Origin: Thermodesulfobacterium hveragerdense DSM 12571
GTDB taxonomy: Bacteria; Desulfobacterota; Thermodesulfobacteria; Thermodesulfobacteriales; Thermodesulfobacteriaceae
Direction: 5' to 3'
DNA length: 64,000 nt
NCBI RefSeq assembly: GCF_000423845.1
Contig: NZ_AUIT01000001.1
Coordinates: 124,001-188,000 of the forward strand
A program made the translations under genes and the position numbers. Of this stretch, positions 5,151 through 47,812 are shown piece by piece; position 1 is the first letter of the stretch, and every line of letters starts with the position of its first letter. The notes under the pieces are model-generated. The model was given only the letters and a program-made list of their open reading frames with translations, was not told where the DNA came from and searched no databases.

Positions 5151-6339
5151 GTTCTTTCATCTCTCTTACTGCCTCTTTCATACCTATCATAATAGCCCGA
5201 GAAACGATACTATGACCAATACTAAACTCTTCTATCTCAGGAATAGCAGCCACAGGCCCTATGTTTTCATAGCTTAAACCATGCCCTGCATGTACGATAA
5301 AACCAAGGTCTTTAGCCAACCGTGCAGCGACTTCTATTTTACCAAACTCTTCTTCTCTTTTTACCTCATCCTCTGCTTCAGCATACATCCCTGTATGTAT
5401 TTCGATGATCTGAGCCCCAGTTTTTTTTGCGAGCTTTATGGCTTCCTCGTCTGGGTTTAGGAAAAGACTTACCTTAATACCTGCCTTGTTTAGCTCTTTT
5501 ACCGCCTTTTTTACCTTTTCTACATTTCCGGTTAAATCCATTCCGCCTTCGGTGGTGATTTCTTCTGTCCTTTCTGGAACTAAGGTTACCTGATAAGGTT
5601 TAATCTCCTTAGCAAACTTGATCAATTTCTCATCTATGGCCATCTCTAAAATCAGTTTGGTTTTAATCACTTCTTTTATCAACCTTACATCCCTTTCTTT
5701 TATATGTCTTCTATCTAATCTTAAATGTACGACAATTCCGTCAGCGCCTCCTAACTCTGCTAGCACGGCTGCATGCACAGGATCAGGATAAAGGGCTTTC
5801 CTTGCCTCCCTGACTGTGGCCACATGATCCACGTTTACCGCAAGTTTGGCTGGCATATACTCCCTCCTTTTTAAAAAGTTTAAAACCTCTTCTTTACCTT
5901 CAGAAAAACCTACTTTTTCAAACAATTGTATCTCTTTTTTTAACATAAGCCAAGGAGAAAAAATCCCCTTTTCGTGGTCATAGTCAAGAAGATGAACCAA
6001 CCCATGAATGGCTAAGCTCAAAAGATAGTTTTTAAAGTTTAATCCATAAAATTCTGCCTCTTCTTTAGCCTTTTCTACCGAAATAATAATCTCACCTAAA
6101 AGATCGGTTTGAAACCCCTGTTTATCAAAAAAAGAAAAAGAAAGCACGTTAGTAGGATAGTTTCTTCCTAAGTATTTAAAGTTTAAATCCCAAATGGTTG
6201 AATTATCAACCAAGGTTAAAGAAACCTCTTTTTTCTCAAATTTTAGTTCTTTTAAAGCTTGGGTTAACCTTGAAGCTATTTTTTTTTCTAAATCTTGGGG
6301 TATAAGTCCGTTCCTTGAGGTAAAAATAGAGACAGGCAT
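5128..6339 (-). CDS. ybeY-pdxJ: YbeY endoribonuclease and pyridoxine 5'-phosphate synthase PdxJ in one reading frame
   Basis: One uninterrupted 403-codon frame holds two normally separate enzymes. Residues 1 to about 160 are YbeY, a zinc RNase for rRNA maturation: 'TNVLSFSF', 'LGEIIISVE', and the metal triad His112, His116, His122 in 'HGLVHLLDYDH'. Residues 162-403 are PdxJ, which condenses aminoacetone phosphate and deoxyxylulose phosphate to PNP: 'NVDHVATVREAR', 'DGIVVHLRLDRRHI', and 'IEIHTG' are intact and the length (242 aa) is that of a complete PdxJ. Met162 (ATG at 5856-5854) is preceded in frame by AAGGAGGGAGTAT, a strong ribosome site. The cell may therefore make a fusion, free PdxJ, or both. 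The frame overlaps trmI by one base. Confidence 0.93.
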   Translation of the reverse strand: MPVSIFTSRNGLIPQDLEKKIASRLTQALKELKFEKKEVSLTLVDNSTIWDLNFKYLGRNYPTNVLSFSFFDKQGFQTDLLGEIIISVEKAKEEAEFYGLNFKNYLLSLAIHGLVHLLDYDHEKGIFSPWLMLKKEIQLFEKVGFSEGKEEVLNFLKRREYMPAKLAVNVDHVATVREARKALYPDPVHAAVLAELGGADGIVVHLRLDRRHIKERDVRLIKEVIKTKLILEMAIDEKLIKFAKEIKPYQVTLVPERTEEITTEGGMDLTGNVEKVKKAVKELNKAGIKVSLFLNPDEEAIKLAKKTGAQIIEIHTGMYAEAEDEVKREEEFGKIEVAARLAKDLGFIVHAGHGLSYENIGPVAAIPEIEEFSIGHSIVSRAIMIGMKEAVREMKELIWKARG

Positions 6340-7106
6340 TATTTTTCTACCACCTTTTTAGCAAAGATTAAAAATCCAGTATGAGCAACCATCCTATCTT
6401 CTGGTCTTAACCTTTCAGGATTGGGTTTGTATTGCCTAAGGAGTATTTCAGAAACCTCTATGTCTAAGAAAGGTAGACGCTGTAACTCTAAAAGGCATTG
6501 AGAAACTTGGTTAGTAGTAGGAACAAGGATTCCTAAAAAATGACCTCCCTTTAGGGCCCCCCAAGCTGCAGGGATCAACTTCCAGGGTTCTTTTAAGTCT
6601 AAAAAGACCGCATCTACCTCTTTTTCTTCAAAAGCCTCTGTGACTTCTGTGTTCTTAAAAATTACTCTATCTAAAAGACCAAGTCTTTTAAGGTTTTTTA
6701 TAGCAATCTTCTGAAATTTGGGCTCTTTTTCATAAGAGATAACTTTTCCCTCTTGACCAACCATAAAGGCAAAAGCTGTAGTTAAAGCCCCAGAGCCTCC
6801 ACCACATTCTAAAACCAGACTTCCTGGCCCTACGTTAAGTTTAAGTAAAATATACCCTATATCCTTAGGATAAACTACTTGGGTAGCCCTCTCAACCTTC
6901 ATCAAAAAATCATATAGAGAAGGCCTTAATACATAAAATCTTTCACCTTTTTTTCCGTAAACGACTTCTCCGTAGTTTTTTCCGATCAATTCTTTTAGGT
7001 ATAAAAAGTCTTTATGTGTATGAAAAGAAGTATCTTTAACCTCAACTAAATACTTTTTTTCGTCTGAAGTTAAAATAAGAACGTAGTCTCCTTCAGCGAT
7101 CTTCAT
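6339..7106 (-). CDS. trmI: tRNA (adenine-N1)-methyltransferase, TrmI family
   Basis: A 255-residue SAM-dependent enzyme expected to methylate A58 (and possibly A57) in the T-loop of tRNAs, a modification that supports growth at high temperature. The N-terminal small beta domain ('GDYVLILTSDEKKYLVEV') is typical, SAM motif I is 'LECGGGSGAL' at 99-108, and the C-terminal 'RMVAHTGFL' segment is diagnostic for TrmI. The start at 7106 was chosen over an upstream in-frame start at 7265 because it follows an AAGGGAG ribosome site and begins the family's conserved N-terminus; the longer version would overlap the upstream aminopeptidase. Its stop overlaps the ybeY start. Confidence 0.92.
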   Translation of the reverse strand: MKIAEGDYVLILTSDEKKYLVEVKDTSFHTHKDFLYLKELIGKNYGEVVYGKKGERFYVLRPSLYDFLMKVERATQVVYPKDIGYILLKLNVGPGSLVLECGGGSGALTTAFAFMVGQEGKVISYEKEPKFQKIAIKNLKRLGLLDRVIFKNTEVTEAFEEKEVDAVFLDLKEPWKLIPAAWGALKGGHFLGILVPTTNQVSQCLLELQRLPFLDIEVSEILLRQYKPNPERLRPEDRMVAHTGFLIFAKKVVEK

Positions 7107-26432: not shown

Positions 26433-26711
26433 ATGAACAAGGCAGACCTCGTAAAAAGGATGGCAGAGATCGCAGAAGTACCTAAGTCTACTGCTGAAAA
26501 GCTCTTAGACGCTTTTATGGAAGCTGTAGAAGAAGCAGTTTCAAAAGGAGACAAAGTAGTATTGGTTGGTTTTGGAACCTTTCAAGTGTTAAAAAGAGCT
26601 GAAAGAGAAGGAAGAAACCCCAGAACAGGCAAACCTATCAAAATCCCTGCTAAAAAGGTGGTTAAGTTTAAGCCAGGCAAAAAATTAGAAGATGCCGCTT
26701 CTAAAGCATAA
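26433..26711 (+). CDS. hup: HU-family DNA-binding protein
   Basis: A 92-residue HU protein: 'MNKADLVKRMAEIAEVPKS' helices, 'VLVGFGTFQVLKRAERE' strands and the DNA-clasping arm 'GRNPRTGKPIKIPAKKVVKF' followed by 'KPGKKLED'. It bends and compacts DNA. The start at 26433 is set by AAGGAGGG just upstream; an in-frame TTG-type start at 26397 lies inside the promoter region. A hairpin begins 11 bases after the stop. Confidence 0.97.
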   Translation: MNKADLVKRMAEIAEVPKSTAEKLLDAFMEAVEEAVSKGDKVVLVGFGTFQVLKRAEREGRNPRTGKPIKIPAKKVVKFKPGKKLEDAASKA

Positions 26712-26722
26712 AAAGGTTTAAA

Positions 26723-26753
26723 TTTAACGGGGGCTGCTTTCTCCCCCGTTAAA
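26723..26753. terminator. Hairpin between convergent genes, overlapping the end of the minus-strand gene
   Basis: An 11-bp stem TTTAACGGGGG / CCCCCGTTAAA with a 9-base loop. On the minus strand it is followed by a T-rich stretch (TTTAAACCTTTTT); on the plus strand the tail is A-rich, so it is the better terminator for the minus strand but may stop both. It encodes the last residues and TAA of the gene ending at 26724. Confidence 0.6.
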
Positions 26754-29339
26754 CAAATAATCTCCTGTTTCTGTAGACAATCTTTTTTGGTTGTCAAGAA
26801 TTATCTTTTTAAAATTCAAAAAGTTTTTCTTTTGTAATCCCTGAGTAATACCAGAAACAGTACTAATTTCCTCTTTAGTCGTAATAAGAATGGTTTGAAA
26901 GTTTGGATATTCTTCAAGAACCTTAAGTAAATTTTCTGTCAGAGCTTCTTTTTTTAAGAGATGGGCTTGATAAAAATGTTCAAAAGGAGGGAAAGACTGT
27001 GTTTTCTGCTGATACTTTTCATAAAGATAGCTTTTAAAAAGTGGGTTCATCAAGTCCATTTCTGGAAGATTAGAGATTTCCTCTTGAGAAAGGCTGAAAA
27101 TTCCTTTATCAAGTACCTTTTGAAACAGACTCTCTTCTACCCCTATGGCTAAAACCTTTATTTTTTTGATCTTAGCCAATCTTAGAACTTCAATTAGGTT
27201 GTCAAGATTAACCCCCACTTCTACCTTTGACAGTTCTTTTCTTAGGTATTCTTTAGAAACCTTACCTTCAATAAACTGGTCTATCAGAGATTGATAGGAA
27301 GAAGGTAGGTCCAAGGTGATTATTAAATTATCGTTTAACCGATGCAGGTTTTCTAAAAATTCTTGGTAAAATTGAGTAAAATCTGCAGTTGGATTTTGCT
27401 TTTCTTCTCCTATTAAGATCAACTGAGTATTTGCCAGTTGTAAAGTAAGGTCATAGGTCGTGATAGAAGTCTTGGTATAAAAACCCTCTGGTTTAAGCCT
27501 TACAGGAACTAAAATCCCTTGTTGAGAATCTAAAGTTTTTTTTAAAAATACCTTACCTGACTTTATCCATCCTTCAGTTAAAGATTTCAAGCTAAACCAG
27601 AGATTAACTGAAAGCTCCGTTTCCCCTACTGAAGAGGAAAAAAAATAACCCAACATCCCTTCTTTTTCAAAAGGTTGAGGAACTAACTTAAAATATACTC
27701 CCTGGTCTATATGCTTTATCATCCAGGGAAAAGGGAATCTATGTAAATAAACCACGTTTTTAGCCTCCTCCCAAACAACCTGAGAAGGGTCTTTAACCGG
27801 TAATATCTTATATCCCTTTTTCCTAAAAACCTCTATTATTTTTTGATAAAGTAGGAGCTCTTCTTCAGGATAAATCAAAACCCCTGGATTTTCTAACAGC
27901 CTGTCCAACCCCACATACTCTTCTTTTTTTTCTAAAATCCTCCATAGAGTATAATCCGGGTCTAAATATATTTCTTCAGGCCTTTCTTTTAGCCACACCT
28001 GAACGATTTGGTAAGGACTTATCACGTTTTTTTCAAAAGAATAGGTCATGTTTTTACACACCACAGAAAATTTAACCACCACCTCACGTTCGTTTGGAGT
28101 AAGGGTATGTGGAGAATTAGACTTGATTAGAGCTAAGGTTAATTCGTAGCCTCCATCCTTAGGTTGCAAAAATACTACCTCTCCTCTGAGATAAAGCTTT
28201 TTAAACATAGAGAAATCCGAAAAAGAAGCAAAAACCTCTGGGAAAGAAGATTTTAAGTAGGTTAAAAGGTCTTCAAAAGATTGGAGGGTAAAAAGTTTGG
28301 TTTCGTAAAAATGTTTTAACCTACTTAAAAGGACTTCCTCTCCCAATCTTTGCTTAAGCTCTAAAAAGTAAAAAAAACTTTTGCCTTCTAAGGATGAGGT
28401 GCTGAGGAGTTTCTTGCGCAATTCCACTTTTCGCTGAGCCACATCTTTTAAAAACAAGGCAAGTCCTTTAACCCTTTGATCTTCTTGGTAAAAGATCCCA
28501 TCTTTTAAGCGTTTTTCGTTAACCCAAAAGCTAAAATCCCAAGGGGAATCGAATATCGAAGGATTAACCAAAAGGGTGTTGGAGTAATCTAAATTAGGTT
28601 CCTGGTCCTTTATCAAAAACACAAAGAGATTAGAAAAAGGATAAACCTCAGAAAATTTCTTGTCTATACCTCCTAAAACAGACTTAACTTTTGAGAACCA
28701 AGAAGAAACCTCTTCTTTAGAAAGAACCTTTTTGTTATCTAAGGAATACAAAAAAATTTTCAGATTTTTATACGTTAAAACCGAAGGAACAAAAGGCTCT
28801 TTAGAAAGTATTAAAACCGGAGATTTTATCGGTTTTAGATTCTTAAACCTATAGACTAAAAATCCTCCTTCTTCTTTTACTTCATAATCCTCTGAGGGAA
28901 CAAGCGCAAAATATCCCAGCTTTTTTGGAACCTTTAAGGTAATTTCATAGGTAAAGGGCTCTTCGGGTAACGGGATAAACCGATCTACGAAAATTAAAGG
29001 AACCACGGTAAAATTTACAGATTTTTCGAAATATAAAAATAAGGGGCTGTTAGGTTTTTCATCCAAAAAGGTTAAAGCCGATTCTTTAAAAGGTACTGAA
29101 GAAAGAGGTTTGCCCTCTAAAATGGCTTCTTTAAAATGAAACCCTTCTGTCTTAAAGGTTTGGACCTTTTTTTCCTGTAAAACTGTTTGCAAACTACCTT
29201 CTATAACATTTGGTTTTAACTCTAAATCCAGTTTGAGATGCAAAGGGGTAAAATTAGCCCCATACGACCCCAAAGGGAACAAAAACACCCCTAAAGTTAT
29301 TAATAATAAAAGAAAAAAGGCTGTTTTCCAGTTTGCCAT
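26724..29339 (-). CDS. Large exported protein: inactive M1-peptidase-like region plus degenerate ChaN-like domain
   Basis: An 871-residue protein with a signal peptide (about 1-28, 'FFLLLLITLGVFLFPLGSYGA'). The first half resembles gluzincin (M1) proteins: beta-rich N-terminus, then 'KIFLYSLDNKKVLSKEEVSSW' and 'FSEVYPFSNLFVFL', but there is no HExxH where one is expected. Around residues 660-860 the order of a ChaN (Haem_bdg_2) domain can be followed: 'LILIGEEKQNP' for GExHxN, 'ITLDLPSSYQSLIDQFIEGKVS', 'RLAKIKKIKVLAIGVE', 'FYQAHLLKKEAL', and 'ITTKEEISTVSGITQGL', with the usual histidines lost. Start 29339 chosen for AAGGGG; a longer start at 29387 lacks one. Likely periplasmic; function unknown. 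Confidence 0.72.
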   Translation of the reverse strand: MANWKTAFFLLLLITLGVFLFPLGSYGANFTPLHLKLDLELKPNVIEGSLQTVLQEKKVQTFKTEGFHFKEAILEGKPLSSVPFKESALTFLDEKPNSPLFLYFEKSVNFTVVPLIFVDRFIPLPEEPFTYEITLKVPKKLGYFALVPSEDYEVKEEGGFLVYRFKNLKPIKSPVLILSKEPFVPSVLTYKNLKIFLYSLDNKKVLSKEEVSSWFSKVKSVLGGIDKKFSEVYPFSNLFVFLIKDQEPNLDYSNTLLVNPSIFDSPWDFSFWVNEKRLKDGIFYQEDQRVKGLALFLKDVAQRKVELRKKLLSTSSLEGKSFFYFLELKQRLGEEVLLSRLKHFYETKLFTLQSFEDLLTYLKSSFPEVFASFSDFSMFKKLYLRGEVVFLQPKDGGYELTLALIKSNSPHTLTPNEREVVVKFSVVCKNMTYSFEKNVISPYQIVQVWLKERPEEIYLDPDYTLWRILEKKEEYVGLDRLLENPGVLIYPEEELLLYQKIIEVFRKKGYKILPVKDPSQVVWEEAKNVVYLHRFPFPWMIKHIDQGVYFKLVPQPFEKEGMLGYFFSSSVGETELSVNLWFSLKSLTEGWIKSGKVFLKKTLDSQQGILVPVRLKPEGFYTKTSITTYDLTLQLANTQLILIGEEKQNPTADFTQFYQEFLENLHRLNDNLIITLDLPSSYQSLIDQFIEGKVSKEYLRKELSKVEVGVNLDNLIEVLRLAKIKKIKVLAIGVEESLFQKVLDKGIFSLSQEEISNLPEMDLMNPLFKSYLYEKYQQKTQSFPPFEHFYQAHLLKKEALTENLLKVLEEYPNFQTILITTKEEISTVSGITQGLQKKNFLNFKKIILDNQKRLSTETGDYLFNGGESSPR

Positions 29340-29350
29340 GTTTCCCCTTT

Positions 29351-29378
29351 TTGAAAAATAAAAATTTTGAAATATAAT
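29351..29378 (+). promoter_or_regulatory. Sigma-70-type promoter of purQ
   Basis: TTGAAA (29351-29356), 16-base spacer, consensus TATAAT (29373-29378), about 40 bases before the purQ ATG. It lies only 11 bases upstream of the divergent ChaN-like gene's start. Confidence 0.65.
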
Positions 29379-29418
29379 TAAAAACACTATAACTTAACTC
29401 AGGAGATTTGTAAAGGCT

Positions 29419-30231
29419 ATGAAAAAACCAAGAGTGCTTGTGCTATGGGGATATGGTATAAACTGTGAAGTAGAAACTTCCTATGCTTTTAAACTCGCAG
29501 GAGGAGACCCTGAGATAGTTCACCTGTCTGAAATCTTTTCTGGAGAAAAAAAACTTCTTGATTATCAAATCATCTGTTTTCCTGGAGGTTTTTTAGATGG
29601 AGACCACTTAGGAAGTGCTCAGGCTTGTGCCCACAGGTTTAAACATTTAAAACTAAAAGATGGCTCCTATCTCTGGGAAAAACTTATGATTTTTCTGGAA
29701 AAAGGAGGGCTTATCTTAGGAATATGTAATGGATTTCAACTGTTGGTGAAAATGGGGCTTCTACCAGGAGGAAAATATTTAGGCGAAAGAAAGGTTACCC
29801 TTACCTACAATGACTCAGGCAAGTTTGAGGACAGATGGGTTTATCTAAAAGTAAACCCACAAACCAAATGTATCTTTTTAGAAGGTTTAGACGAACTTTA
29901 CCTTCCGGTAAGGCACGGAGAAGGTAAGTTTATCCCTAAGGACGAAAAAATACTTGAAGAAATAAAATCTCAAGGTCTTATCGCCCTCCAATACATCCAT
30001 CCTGAAACCCGAACCCCCACCTTAGAATATCCTTACAATCCTAACGGAGCTTTTGAAGCCGTAGCTGGGTTAACAGACCCTACCGGACGTATTTTTGGGC
30101 TTATGCCTCACCCAGAGGCCTTTAACCATTTTACCAACCATCCTCGTTGGACCCGAGAAAAGAACTTAACGGTAGCTGGGCTTGAAATCTTCAAAAACGC
30201 AGTAAACTGGGTTAAAAACAACTTGCTTTAA
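29419..30231 (+). CDS. purQ: Phosphoribosylformylglycinamidine synthase, glutaminase subunit PurQ (long form)
   Basis: A 270-residue class I glutamine amidotransferase that supplies ammonia to PurL in purine synthesis. 'IICFPGGFLDGDHLG', the nucleophile segment 'LGICNGFQLLVKMGLLPG' (Cys about 98) and 'GLMPHPEAFNHFTNHP' with the His-Glu pair are present. At 270 residues it is longer than the roughly 225-residue Bacillus-type PurQ and ends like the amidotransferase part of large PurL. No purL or purS is adjacent. Its TAA overlaps the tatC start. Confidence 0.92.
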   Translation: MKKPRVLVLWGYGINCEVETSYAFKLAGGDPEIVHLSEIFSGEKKLLDYQIICFPGGFLDGDHLGSAQACAHRFKHLKLKDGSYLWEKLMIFLEKGGLILGICNGFQLLVKMGLLPGGKYLGERKVTLTYNDSGKFEDRWVYLKVNPQTKCIFLEGLDELYLPVRHGEGKFIPKDEKILEEIKSQGLIALQYIHPETRTPTLEYPYNPNGAFEAVAGLTDPTGRIFGLMPHPEAFNHFTNHPRWTREKNLTVAGLEIFKNAVNWVKNNLL

Positions 30232-31004
30232 TGTACACCAAAAAATTAGCTCAATCTCTCAGGTATCTCTTAACCCTTTGGAAGAAAAGAAGCTTTTTGA
30301 TCCTTTTCCTCTTTTTTTCTGTTTACATTAGTTTTTTTTTAGCCTCTCCTTACATACTGAATTTTCTTCAACATATCTACCAACAAAAGTTTGTTTTTTA
30401 TAGTCTGTCAGAACCCATTGCTTCCTTTATTAAATTTTCCTTGGTTTTGACTATTTTAGTCACCTTTCCCTTTATTTTTTATCTATTTTTAAAAGCTTTG
30501 AACTTAGGCTTCAATTTTAAAAAAAAGTTTTTCTGGATGTTTTATGTTTTGGGATTGAGTCTTTTTTATTTAGGGGTGGTGTTTGCCTATTTTATTACCC
30601 TCCCTTATGGAATAAAGTTTTTGCTTTCCTTTCGTACCGAAAAAATAGAGCCTTCCATTTCCTTAGGGCATTTTGTTAATTTTTTTTCTTTTTTTGTGAT
30701 TGCCTTTGGGCTAATCTTTGAGCTCCCTCTTTTTTTAACCTTTCTGTCTTTAACCAAAGTATTAAATCCCTATAGAATCACCAAGTATCGCAGGGAAATC
30801 TTTTTTGGTATAGCCGTGCTCTCTGCAATCATAACCCCAACTCCAGATGCCTTTAACATGGCCCTTCTGTCTTTTCCTCTTTATGTACTCTTTGAGTTAG
30901 GAATTTTCCTTTCAAGGTTTTTGCTGAGAAGTAACCTGTTAGAAAACACTCAAAATGAAAACACTCAACATGAGGAATTAAAACCCTCTAAAAAAGACGA
31001 TTAA
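30231..31004 (+). CDS. tatC: Sec-independent translocase TatC (first copy)
   Basis: A 257-residue six-helix membrane protein. The family motifs are in the second half: 'VIAFGLIFELPLFLTFLSL', with the conserved Glu before Leu-Pro, and 'IAVLSAIITPTPDAFNMALLSFPLYVLFELG'. TatC binds twin-arginine signal peptides. The N-terminal 'HLxELR' motif is poorly kept ('QSLRYLLTLWKK'). It overlaps purQ by one base and has no tatA/B next to it; a second TatC lies at 36589-37299. A repeat-like NTQNENTQHE tail follows the last helix. Confidence 0.88.
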   Translation: MYTKKLAQSLRYLLTLWKKRSFLILFLFFSVYISFFLASPYILNFLQHIYQQKFVFYSLSEPIASFIKFSLVLTILVTFPFIFYLFLKALNLGFNFKKKFFWMFYVLGLSLFYLGVVFAYFITLPYGIKFLLSFRTEKIEPSISLGHFVNFFSFFVIAFGLIFELPLFLTFLSLTKVLNPYRITKYRREIFFGIAVLSAIITPTPDAFNMALLSFPLYVLFELGIFLSRFLLRSNLLENTQNENTQHEELKPSKKDD

Positions 31005-45388: not shown

Positions 45389-47812
45389 ATGGTTTTTACC
45401 GAACTTTTGGCATGTTTAATCCCTAAACTTGCTCTAACCATCACCGGAAGTGATACCTTTAAAGAAGTCATAGAAAAGATGAAACAGACAGGAGAGACCT
45501 TTGTGGTCCTTTTAGAGAACCATTTTCCCACAGGAATCTTTACAGAAAGAGACCTGATAAAATGTTTAGCAGCAGGTATTCCCTTAAACGAAAAGGTCAG
45601 AAACTTTGCCAAAAAAAATCTGGTAAAAATACGAGAAGACCGTCCGTTAGCAGTAGCCCTTACCATCATGATAGAGTATGGTATAAGAAGGCTGATAGTG
45701 GTAGACCAAAAGGGAAAATATCGAGGGATAATAACCCACAAAGATATCTTTGAAATTTTAGACCCAGAGCTTTTCAAAAAAGAAATCACCGCAGCCCATT
45801 TTACTAAAAACAAACCTTTTTACTATCTTAATCCTAACCATACTTTACAGGAAGCCTTAAATTTGATGGTAGAAAAAAACATAGGAGCTATTCCTATAGT
45901 CGATGAGGATGGAAAACCTGTAGGCATACTTACTGAAAAAGATTTTATCTTTAAACTGGAGTTGAGCAATCTTTCCGAAAAAATTGGTAACGTAGCCTTA
46001 AAAGAGGTCTATACAGCTTCTAAGATTGAACCTATTTCACAGCTAAAACTTAAGTTTAAAAATCTTAAGGTCAACCACTTAGTAATTGTCGATGAAGAGG
46101 GTAAGGCTGTAGGTATCATCTCTACTCGGGATTTATTAGGTATGGCTAAAGAAACCTATGCCTCTTACATGGAAAATAAGTTCAAACAAGCCAAAGACTT
46201 ACTTTATATACTCCCTGAAATAGTGCTTGAGATCTTAGACTTAGGGTATGAACAGGTAATATACTGGGGAAGTGCTAAAGCTCACGAAATCTTTGGGAAA
46301 AAGATAGACGAAAAAAGTGTGCTTGAGATTTTTGACCAAGAAGACTGGTACCGTGTATTCGGCAAACTAAAAAAACTTAACAAAGTCCATAAAGAAACCA
46401 TAAAAAGTTTAAACGGACATATTTTTGAGGTTTCAGGCTCATACCTTAAACTTCACCTCGAAGGGGAAGGTAAAATCCATCTTGTTTTAAGAGATATCAC
46501 CTATAACCATCGGTATTTAACCGAATTAAAATCCCATGCAGAATTTATCCAAAACCTGATCAACTCTATCGACAGTTTAATTTTGGTGGTAGACCCTGAA
46601 GATGGAACCTTTAAGTTTTATAACCATACAGTGTTTTCTTGTCTTGGTTATGATAAAGAAGAGATGGATTATAAAACCATCTATGACATCGTCTATTGGC
46701 CTTATCAACAAATAAAAACCAACCTACAGATGGTAGCCAACGAAGGAAAAGAAATAAAAGGAGAAAGGCTTTATCTTTCTAAGACCGGAGAGAGAATACC
46801 GGTAGAAACCTATGCCTTTAGGTTGATCCTTGACAAATCTTATGTTGCGATCTCAAGCAAGTTAAAACCAATCTATCAACTTGAAACCCTTAACAAAGAA
46901 TTAACACTTTGTAAATCTCAAAAAGAAGCCCTTTCTGTTCTCTCTAAATATCTCTTAAACTTTATAGACACCCTTCAATTTTTGGAAATATCTCCAGAAA
47001 CAGGGGAGATCCTTTCAACCTATATAGAAGGAGACCAAGATCTGTGGAAAGGTTGCATAGACAATAAGGCTAACGAATGTAAGGCTTACAGCAATGGTAT
47101 TTTGATAGAAAAGGCAGAAATACTTTGTACAAATGTCAAAGCTGAAAAATATTTAGACTTCTTTTGTTATCCTTTGATTTTAGAAGGAAGGGTAGTAGGG
47201 GTCTTTAGCCTTATAAGAAAGTTGCCTTTAAATAACCTTGAAAAAGAAAATATCAAAAAGATGCTTAGCAACTTTTCTTTTTACTTTTTTAACCTCTATC
47301 TTATCAACAAACTAAAGGAGTTATCGCATACCGACTACCTTACCAAGATTTATAACCGGCTTTTTCTGCAAGAAGTCTTGAAAAAAGAATTCAGTATTTG
47401 GAAAAGGAAAGGAGGAACCCTTTCTATCATTCTCGTAGACATTGACAACTTTAAGGCTGTAAACGACAGGTTTGGACATTTTAACGGAGACCTCATATTA
47501 AAACAAATAGCTACCATACTTAAAAACAATATAAGGGAGATGGACATACTCGGCCGATGGGGAGGGGAAGAATTCATGATAATCCTTCCTTATACTTCTA
47601 AGGATGAAGCCCGTAGACTGGCTGAAAGGCTTAGACTTATCATCGAAGGAACACCCATTAATTTAGACGATAATACCATAAACATCACCGCAAGTTTTGG
47701 TATAGCAAGCCTACCTGAAGACACCGATAGCTTAGATGATCTATACAAAATAGCAGATCAAAGGCTTTACAAAGCTAAAAATCTGGGGAAAAATTTGGTA
47801 GTCTTTGAATAA
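45389..47812 (+). CDS. Diguanylate cyclase with four CBS domains and PAS/GAF-like sensor region
   Basis: An 807-residue soluble signalling protein. Two CBS pairs fill about residues 10-275 (repeated 'GIFTERDLI', 'GIITHKDIF', 'GILTEKDFI', 'GIISTRDLL' ends). PAS-like regions follow at about 280-380 and 385-500, then a GAF-like part with five cysteines (about 510-640), and a GGDEF domain (about 645-805). The active site is 'RWGGEEFMI' and the inhibitory I-site RxxD is present five residues before it (REMD), so it should make c-di-GMP with product inhibition. CBS pairs suggest control by adenine nucleotides. It converges on the flagellar operon with a one-base gap. The start has only a weak ribosome site (TAGGG). 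Confidence 0.9.
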   Translation: MVFTELLACLIPKLALTITGSDTFKEVIEKMKQTGETFVVLLENHFPTGIFTERDLIKCLAAGIPLNEKVRNFAKKNLVKIREDRPLAVALTIMIEYGIRRLIVVDQKGKYRGIITHKDIFEILDPELFKKEITAAHFTKNKPFYYLNPNHTLQEALNLMVEKNIGAIPIVDEDGKPVGILTEKDFIFKLELSNLSEKIGNVALKEVYTASKIEPISQLKLKFKNLKVNHLVIVDEEGKAVGIISTRDLLGMAKETYASYMENKFKQAKDLLYILPEIVLEILDLGYEQVIYWGSAKAHEIFGKKIDEKSVLEIFDQEDWYRVFGKLKKLNKVHKETIKSLNGHIFEVSGSYLKLHLEGEGKIHLVLRDITYNHRYLTELKSHAEFIQNLINSIDSLILVVDPEDGTFKFYNHTVFSCLGYDKEEMDYKTIYDIVYWPYQQIKTNLQMVANEGKEIKGERLYLSKTGERIPVETYAFRLILDKSYVAISSKLKPIYQLETLNKELTLCKSQKEALSVLSKYLLNFIDTLQFLEISPETGEILSTYIEGDQDLWKGCIDNKANECKAYSNGILIEKAEILCTNVKAEKYLDFFCYPLILEGRVVGVFSLIRKLPLNNLEKENIKKMLSNFSFYFFNLYLINKLKELSHTDYLTKIYNRLFLQEVLKKEFSIWKRKGGTLSIILVDIDNFKAVNDRFGHFNGDLILKQIATILKNNIREMDILGRWGGEEFMIILPYTSKDEARRLAERLRLIIEGTPINLDDNTINITASFGIASLPEDTDSLDDLYKIADQRLYKAKNLGKNLVVFE

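Follow-up and report, generated by a model that had tools for sequence, protein, structure and literature searches.

What is the role of an exported protein that combines two enzyme folds and has the active site of neither? The question is raised by a gene for an 871-amino acid (aa) protein in the 1.73 Mb genome of Thermodesulfobacterium hveragerdense DSM 12571, located in a window of 64,000 nucleotides, which is the whole stretch of DNA analysed here. The preliminary description of this gene, made from the sequence of the window, proposed an exported fusion of an M1 peptidase-like module lacking HExxH with a degenerate ChaN domain. The gene and those features that lie outside the two enzyme-like parts are:

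26724..29339, minus strand: coding sequence of the 871-aa exported M1-like/ChaN-like protein, almost certainly a pseudoenzyme (open reading frame; orthologues in 10 further Thermodesulfobacterium genomes)
29256..29339, minus strand: signal peptide-like hydrophobic N-terminus, residues 1-28, without a lipobox cysteine (sequence)
27495..28214, minus strand: middle region, residues 376-615, a beta barrel and a linker module, with LDPxYxLWR kept in all three states defined below (alignment and model)
29386..29414, minus strand: promoter-like TTTACA-17-TATAGT, identical in four relatives

The open frame extends over 26724-29387 of the minus strand, and initiation at the ATG at 29339, upstream of which the Shine-Dalgarno-like AAGGGG is found, gives the 871-aa product. 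Although conserved, the promoter-like site shares sequence with the leader of the divergent purQ-like gene, so that it counts as weak evidence of expression. An AlphaFold2 model built from an alignment of 38 proteins has a mean pLDDT of 83.3 and a pTM of 0.65, and contains an N-terminal helix (residues 2-19); the N-termini of relatives are hydrophobic as well. The hydrophobic N-terminus and the presence of both folds in the model bear out the proposed exported fusion, and the protein is presumably located in the periplasm. An NCBIfam search assigns it to no family, and a phmmer search yields one chance match and nothing else. The copy from Thermodesulfobacterium thermophilum DSM 1276 is 90% identical.

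The first of the two enzyme-like parts comprises the following features:

28215..29255, minus strand: M1 peptidase-like part, residues 29-375, an N-terminal beta domain and a helical catalytic-type domain (alignment and model)
28515..28529, minus strand: ruined HExxH, residues 271-275, with F271, W272 and E275 at the positions of H, E and H (residue table)
28467..28469, minus strand: ruined third zinc-ligand position, with K291 replacing Glu (residue table)

The boundary at residue 375 is read off the secondary structure of the model. A VIA-align comparison of the model superposes residues 29-601 on the M1 aminopeptidase 1z1w with a Z score of 23.7 and an rmsd of 3.9 Å over 417 residues. A Foldseek search with the model gives M1 chains only among the best 50 matches listed, and the similarity to ChaN emerged through VIA-align. 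A Pfam search of the protein gives no match to PF01433 (Peptidase_M1) at E values up to 10. Independently of the model, an hhalign comparison of two profiles, one from residues 1-420 of seven proteins of the genus and one from the N-terminal part of seven intact relatives, gives a probability of 99.8% (E=1.1e-29, 408 columns). A sequence scan finds no HExxH anywhere in the 871 residues, and the aligned columns (F271, W272, E275, K291) confirm that the M1-like part is devoid of it. Thus, with respect to the M1 family, the fold is present whereas HExxH and the downstream zinc-ligand Glu are absent. Intact relatives (e.g., L006, L009 and L044; columns about 355-395 of alignment A1) keep both HExxH and a catalytic-type Tyr. 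The aminopeptidase motif GxMEN is not recognisable in those relatives, where the sequence resembles GYxMPTxTLLG, so the ancestral protein was perhaps not an aminopeptidase.

The features of the second part are:

26739..27485, minus strand: ChaN/TIKI-like domain, residues 619-867 (Pfam PF04187 and structural similarity to 2g5g)
27393..27410, minus strand: GEEKQN, a degenerate GExH motif with His replaced by Lys647 (alignment and residue table)
27309..27311, minus strand: D677, replacing the second TIKI Glu in the LEM motif (residue table)
26868..26870, minus strand: E824, replacing the second TIKI His in the GxGH motif (residue table)

The match to PF04187 (Cofac_haem_bdg) covers residues 634-820 with E=5.4e-15 and 56.4 bits against a cut-off of 27.7, and residues 619-867 superpose on Campylobacter jejuni ChaN, 2g5g, with a Z score of 20.8 and an rmsd of 3.2 Å over 228 residues (VIA-align of the model). 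Hence the model fits both families instead of adopting a fold unrelated to either; the resemblance of the two halves to M1 and ChaN is far above chance, and the PF04187 match, the model alignments and the hhalign result rule out a chance similarity or a wrong frame. Homology and fold are in this way established by sequence and model. The order of the ChaN motifs can be traced as originally described: in the alignment with intact relatives, GEEKQN falls on GExHxx, TLDLPSSYQ on LEMxQxPFQ, FYQAHLLKKEAL on FYQAQxLWDExMA, and GITQGL on GIPxRL. The replacement of the ChaN histidines also stands (K647, E824), but its meaning has to be revised because these histidines match catalytic residues of the 2His/2Glu set of TIKI, so that their loss concerns hydrolase activity. 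In the available text of PMC6254334, which describes the 2His/2Glu residues of a TIKI endopeptidase, mutation of any of the four abolishes cleavage in vitro. Three of the four are lost here (K647, D677 and E824 for H, E and H, with E645 kept), and hydrolysis by the ChaN-like domain is therefore unlikely. A further difference, unseen in the preliminary description, is that intact relatives have a C-terminal PDZ domain: no residues of the 871-aa protein past the end of ChaN align to PDZ, and it has no Pfam PDZ match.

Similarity searches give matches in 40 of the 148 sampled genomes of the phylum, many of them to the ChaN part only, and in 25 of the 30 genomes of the family. Both within the family and beyond, intact relatives have the architecture M1(HExxH)-ChaN(GExH)-PDZ and a length of about 1,000 aa (e.g., Pfam detects Peptidase_M1, Cofac_haem_bdg and PDZ in L044 and L042). 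Among the ORFs of at least 870 aa in named loci, 34 of 35 contain HExxH, T. thermophilum being the exception. The residue table comprises 40 proteins, i.e., all full-length members from the family and chosen ones from outside; it omits L007 and L011 (each of which contains HExxH as well as GExH), the partial ORFs L008 and L014, stand-alone ChaN proteins, and L052, which is the same gene as L049. A3 drew on 37 of the 62 loci.

The table resolves three states. State A (20 of 20 proteins) has all M1 residues (H, E, H, E, Y), all TIKI residues (E, H, E, H) and the PDZ tail. State B consists of nine proteins from two sister genera of Thermodesulfobacterium (L005, L037-L041, L043, L048 and L051; eight from seven genomes of genus g2 and one from g113); HExxH is found in none and the third-ligand Glu in four, whereas the TIKI residues and PDZ are complete in all nine. 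State C consists of the 11 proteins of Thermodesulfobacterium itself (g1). None of these has HExxH or all four TIKI residues; an isolated His occupies the first M1 position in four, both TIKI histidine columns are altered in all 11, the first TIKI Glu is retained in five, and PDZ is missing throughout. A search across the family for homologues that keep the motifs thus finds both sites in state A and the ChaN site only in state B, and the changed M1 and TIKI columns in state C bear out the claim that both active sites have been lost. As a separate observation, two loci from Nitrospirota metagenome-assembled genomes (L079:7626-9602 and L093:7740-9689) encode versions of 650-659 aa with an intact ChaN motif; HExxH is missing both from the ORF and from the 2.5 kb preceding it, which may reflect an independent loss of the M1 site.

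The gene lies between neighbours by which its locus can be recognised:

26433..26711, plus strand: HU DNA-binding protein, convergent neighbour and anchor of the locus (Pfam PF00216)
29419..30231, plus strand: PurQ-like glutamine amidotransferase (GATase_5), divergent neighbour, presumably purQ (Pfam)
30231..31004, plus strand: TatC (Pfam)

A convergent HU gene is present in all seven fetched regions of states B and C that have a purQ-tatC pair upstream (L053, L115, L117-L120 and L122). The convergent HU gene is found also in L054 and L055, and in the intact L056-L062, L065 and L121. The same neighbour at intact and dead versions argues for descent in place, which makes the locus one and the same. 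Elsewhere in the window, an 807-aa protein with CBS, PAS and GGDEF domains is encoded at 45389-47812, and its homologue adjoins tatC in L117 (genome G156).

In one other genome of the genus, G162, the site is empty, with the purQ-like gene (C2:15556-16365) and the HU gene (C2:16506-16778) 140 bases apart; therefore, the gene can be lost and is dispensable in this relative. No match is obtained in G157 and G158 of the same genus either, both of which are incomplete genomes (70% and 82%, respectively). Elsewhere in its genome, G162 encodes a stand-alone intact ChaN protein with GEEHNN and without PDZ (L050, G162:C3:1104-1937; compare L116). In the ChaN-domain tree, this protein branches basally to states B and C with a support of only 90, too low to base a conclusion on, and phmmer finds no match to it among PDB sequences.

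In a tree of the 40 proteins, each of the three states occupies one side of a branch, and two changes suffice to explain them, compared with a mean of 17.3 for shuffled states. States B and C together branch off on a long branch with a support of 100. State C as one side has a support of 74 in this tree, because the fast-evolving, long-branched L049 is unstable, and of 100 in the ChaN-domain tree. Thus, loss of the M1 site came first and preceded the split of B and C, and that of the ChaN site and PDZ followed in C; a regain of sites, with the tree read as unrooted, is conceivable but was judged not credible. Residue losses and their order are accordingly read from sequence and model, like the identity of the locus. 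The scenario that these results suggest would start from an exported three-domain ancestor, an M1 metallopeptidase-ChaN/TIKI hydrolase-PDZ protein, of which the 871-aa protein would be the vertical descendant at the same locus. The M1 zinc site would have been lost before g1, g2 and g113 separated, and the ChaN 2His/2Glu site together with PDZ in g1, leaving a two-lobed protein that has retained its fold and export signal and is under purifying selection over its whole length. That the ChaN site and PDZ disappeared together points to a joint function of both in the ancestral protein.

Selection on the gene is evident from simple Nei-Gojobori-type estimates of dN/dS, which are 0.178 against T. 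thermophilum and 0.187 against L003 for the entire gene and, by region, 0.138, 0.165, 0.207 and 0.191 against L031 and 0.138, 0.150, 0.228 and 0.119 against L002. These values rule out a pseudogene, and, together with the open frames of all 11 Thermodesulfobacterium copies, which span 792-872 aa (one of them is truncated at the end of a contig), they substantiate the claim of an intact 871-residue frame. The gene has the fifth highest dN/dS among 17 neighbouring ORFs with a value (range 0.030-0.244), some of which are probably not genes. Pairs in the dead states have values of 0.18-0.31, compared with 0.066 in the only intact pair for which a usable estimate was obtained, i.e., the constraint on the dead states is weaker but real. 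With its catalytic residues lost and its gene under purifying selection, the 871-aa protein has the hallmarks of a pseudoenzyme, and we regard it as almost certainly a retained double one, which would not perform catalysis.

The same data bear on the possibility of slow decay, whereby the function would be largely gone, the shape would be kept since a misfolded exported protein is costly, and the gene would eventually disappear as in G162. Active sites lost twice in succession, the loss of PDZ, the clean empty site in G162 and the elevated dN/dS compared with the intact pair are all compatible with this course of events. However, copies from the genus can be as little as about 25-36% identical, and unconstrained genes that distant should carry stop codons, which none of the 11 copies does; furthermore, dN/dS is low (0.12-0.23) in every region. 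Slow decay is therefore unlikely, if less so than the other alternatives.

Genomic context points to a different possibility. In all seven named loci with upstream DNA from the closer group of intact relatives (L056-L058, L060-L062 and L071), the gene is preceded on the same strand by cobB, encoding cobyrinate a,c-diamide synthase, as it is in L121 (genome G170), and a CobB-type amidotransferase domain adjoins intact copies in four more genomes of the family (G165, G166, G167 and G169). In several of these loci, cobB overlaps or nearly touches the M1-ChaN-PDZ gene (L056:619-1953; L058:6173-7495; L062, about 5604-6956; L121:10208-11548). The active enzyme may thus have a tetrapyrrole-linked role. 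The ChaN-like domain of the 871-aa protein might still bind a tetrapyrrole such as haem, using ligands different from the histidines that it has lost: it keeps the fold of C. jejuni ChaN, which a work cited in PMC7979712 describes as binding two cofacial haems. Against this, cobB is not the adjoining gene in states B and C or in the more distant intact loci examined, and the lost residues are catalytic ones of TIKI, not known haem ligands, so we consider continued tetrapyrrole binding doubtful.

Sequence conservation offers little sign of a pocket. Conservation in state A is highest in the M1 catalytic part and in ChaN (mean pairwise identity 0.51 in both); in state B, the values are 0.28 for M1 versus 0.61 for ChaN; and in state C, they are 0.31 and 0.41, both near the rest of the protein (for this comparison, state C was thinned to nine proteins, without L031 and L002, and state B to eight). 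No preserved pocket is visible in state C, where the former catalytic columns vary freely and conservation of the M1 part does not exceed that of the rest. A new active site elsewhere in the protein, making it a moonlighting or neofunctionalised enzyme, would account for purifying selection over the full length and for residues outside the old sites that are conserved in state C (e.g., D460, R467, E473, D762, Y790 and E798). However, states A and B conserve most of these residues as well, so that they look structural, and no conserved cluster of His, Cys, Asp or Glu unique to state C is seen, which makes a new site very improbable. Persisting M1 or ChaN activity with ligands displaced in the alignment, to which a His one column off the GxGH position in L035 and L036, the conservative change at D677 and the kept E645 might point, is extremely improbable given the absence of HExxH and the altered TIKI histidine columns in all 11 copies and the sensitivity of TIKI cleavage to mutation of any of the four residues.

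As for a non-catalytic function, regulation of an active sister enzyme is a common role of pseudoenzymes according to the available text of PMC11266112. Searches of the T. hveragerdense genome with the protein and with the PF01433 and PF04187 profiles find no active paralogue, and PF01433 has no match in the 13 relatives of the genus searched. Since the genome lacks a PF01433 match and a second ChaN protein, regulation of a paralogue is unlikely; with catalysis unlikely as well, binding or scaffolding is the best guess, with roughly even chances of being correct. The preliminary description likewise suggested a structural or binding role in the envelope. The surfaces of the M1-like and ChaN-like lobes would then bind a peptide, an exported protein or another ligand in the periplasm, and the protein would serve as a holder or scaffold. 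On the whole, descent in place with losses in two steps, leading to a non-catalytic periplasmic binder or scaffold, is the explanation that we favour, as somewhat probable. Against it weigh the lack of a visible pocket in state C, the higher dN/dS than in the intact pair and the deletion in G162. A more specific version, in which a periplasmic enzyme with two catalytic sites lost them one after the other to become a two-lobed binding protein or holdase and shed its PDZ domain, a substrate-recruiting module, along with the ChaN site, is tentative, though a serious possibility.

Comparison with known proteins places this predicted binder in context. The intact M1-ChaN-PDZ proteins of Thermosulfurimonas- and Thermodesulfatator-like bacteria, other Thermodesulfobacteriota and Nitrospirota (L042-L047, L056-L062 and L063-L102; L043 is also listed under state B) are orthologous to it, with the same domain order and, within the family, an HU-flanked locus, but keep the HExxH, the TIKI 2His/2Glu set and the PDZ that it has lost. 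The state-B proteins share with it the loss of the M1 zinc site and the locus between HU and purQ-tatC, but retain complete ChaN residues and PDZ. C. jejuni ChaN has the common fold and the same order of motifs, but with GEKHD, LEM and GSYH where Lys, Asp and Glu here replace His, Glu and His, and without an M1 part. The ChaN-PDZ family named in PMC6411480 corresponds to the ancestral end of the 871-aa protein, from which PDZ has been lost; the available part of that description mentions neither an M1 part nor dead members. Yeast Tma108, a member of the M1 family that is considered to function non-catalytically by binding a polypeptide (PMC11266112, available text), is comparable but cytosolic, and keeps HExxH-E, whereas the 871-aa protein has lost the zinc site and carries a second dead enzyme domain. 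The available text of PMC6254334 also provides a precedent for a TIKI-fold domain without the 2His/2Glu residues, in an unrelated context and architecture. Hence ChaN-PDZ proteins and M1 pseudopeptidases such as Tma108 are already known; no description of an M1-ChaN fusion or of its dead form was found in the literature searched, which was covered in part.

If the interpretation is correct, the 871-aa protein would be an M1-TIKI pseudoenzyme dead at both sites, whose locus in other living bacteria is occupied by orthologues that are either dead at one site or fully active. For annotation, labels such as "haem-binding uptake, ChaN" or "M1 peptidase" misdescribe the capability of the Thermodesulfobacterium protein. 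Pseudoenzymes are usually studied as end points, whereas here three orthologous states are alive at one HU-flanked locus within a single family, so that what an enzyme still does after catalysis ends could be tested stepwise.
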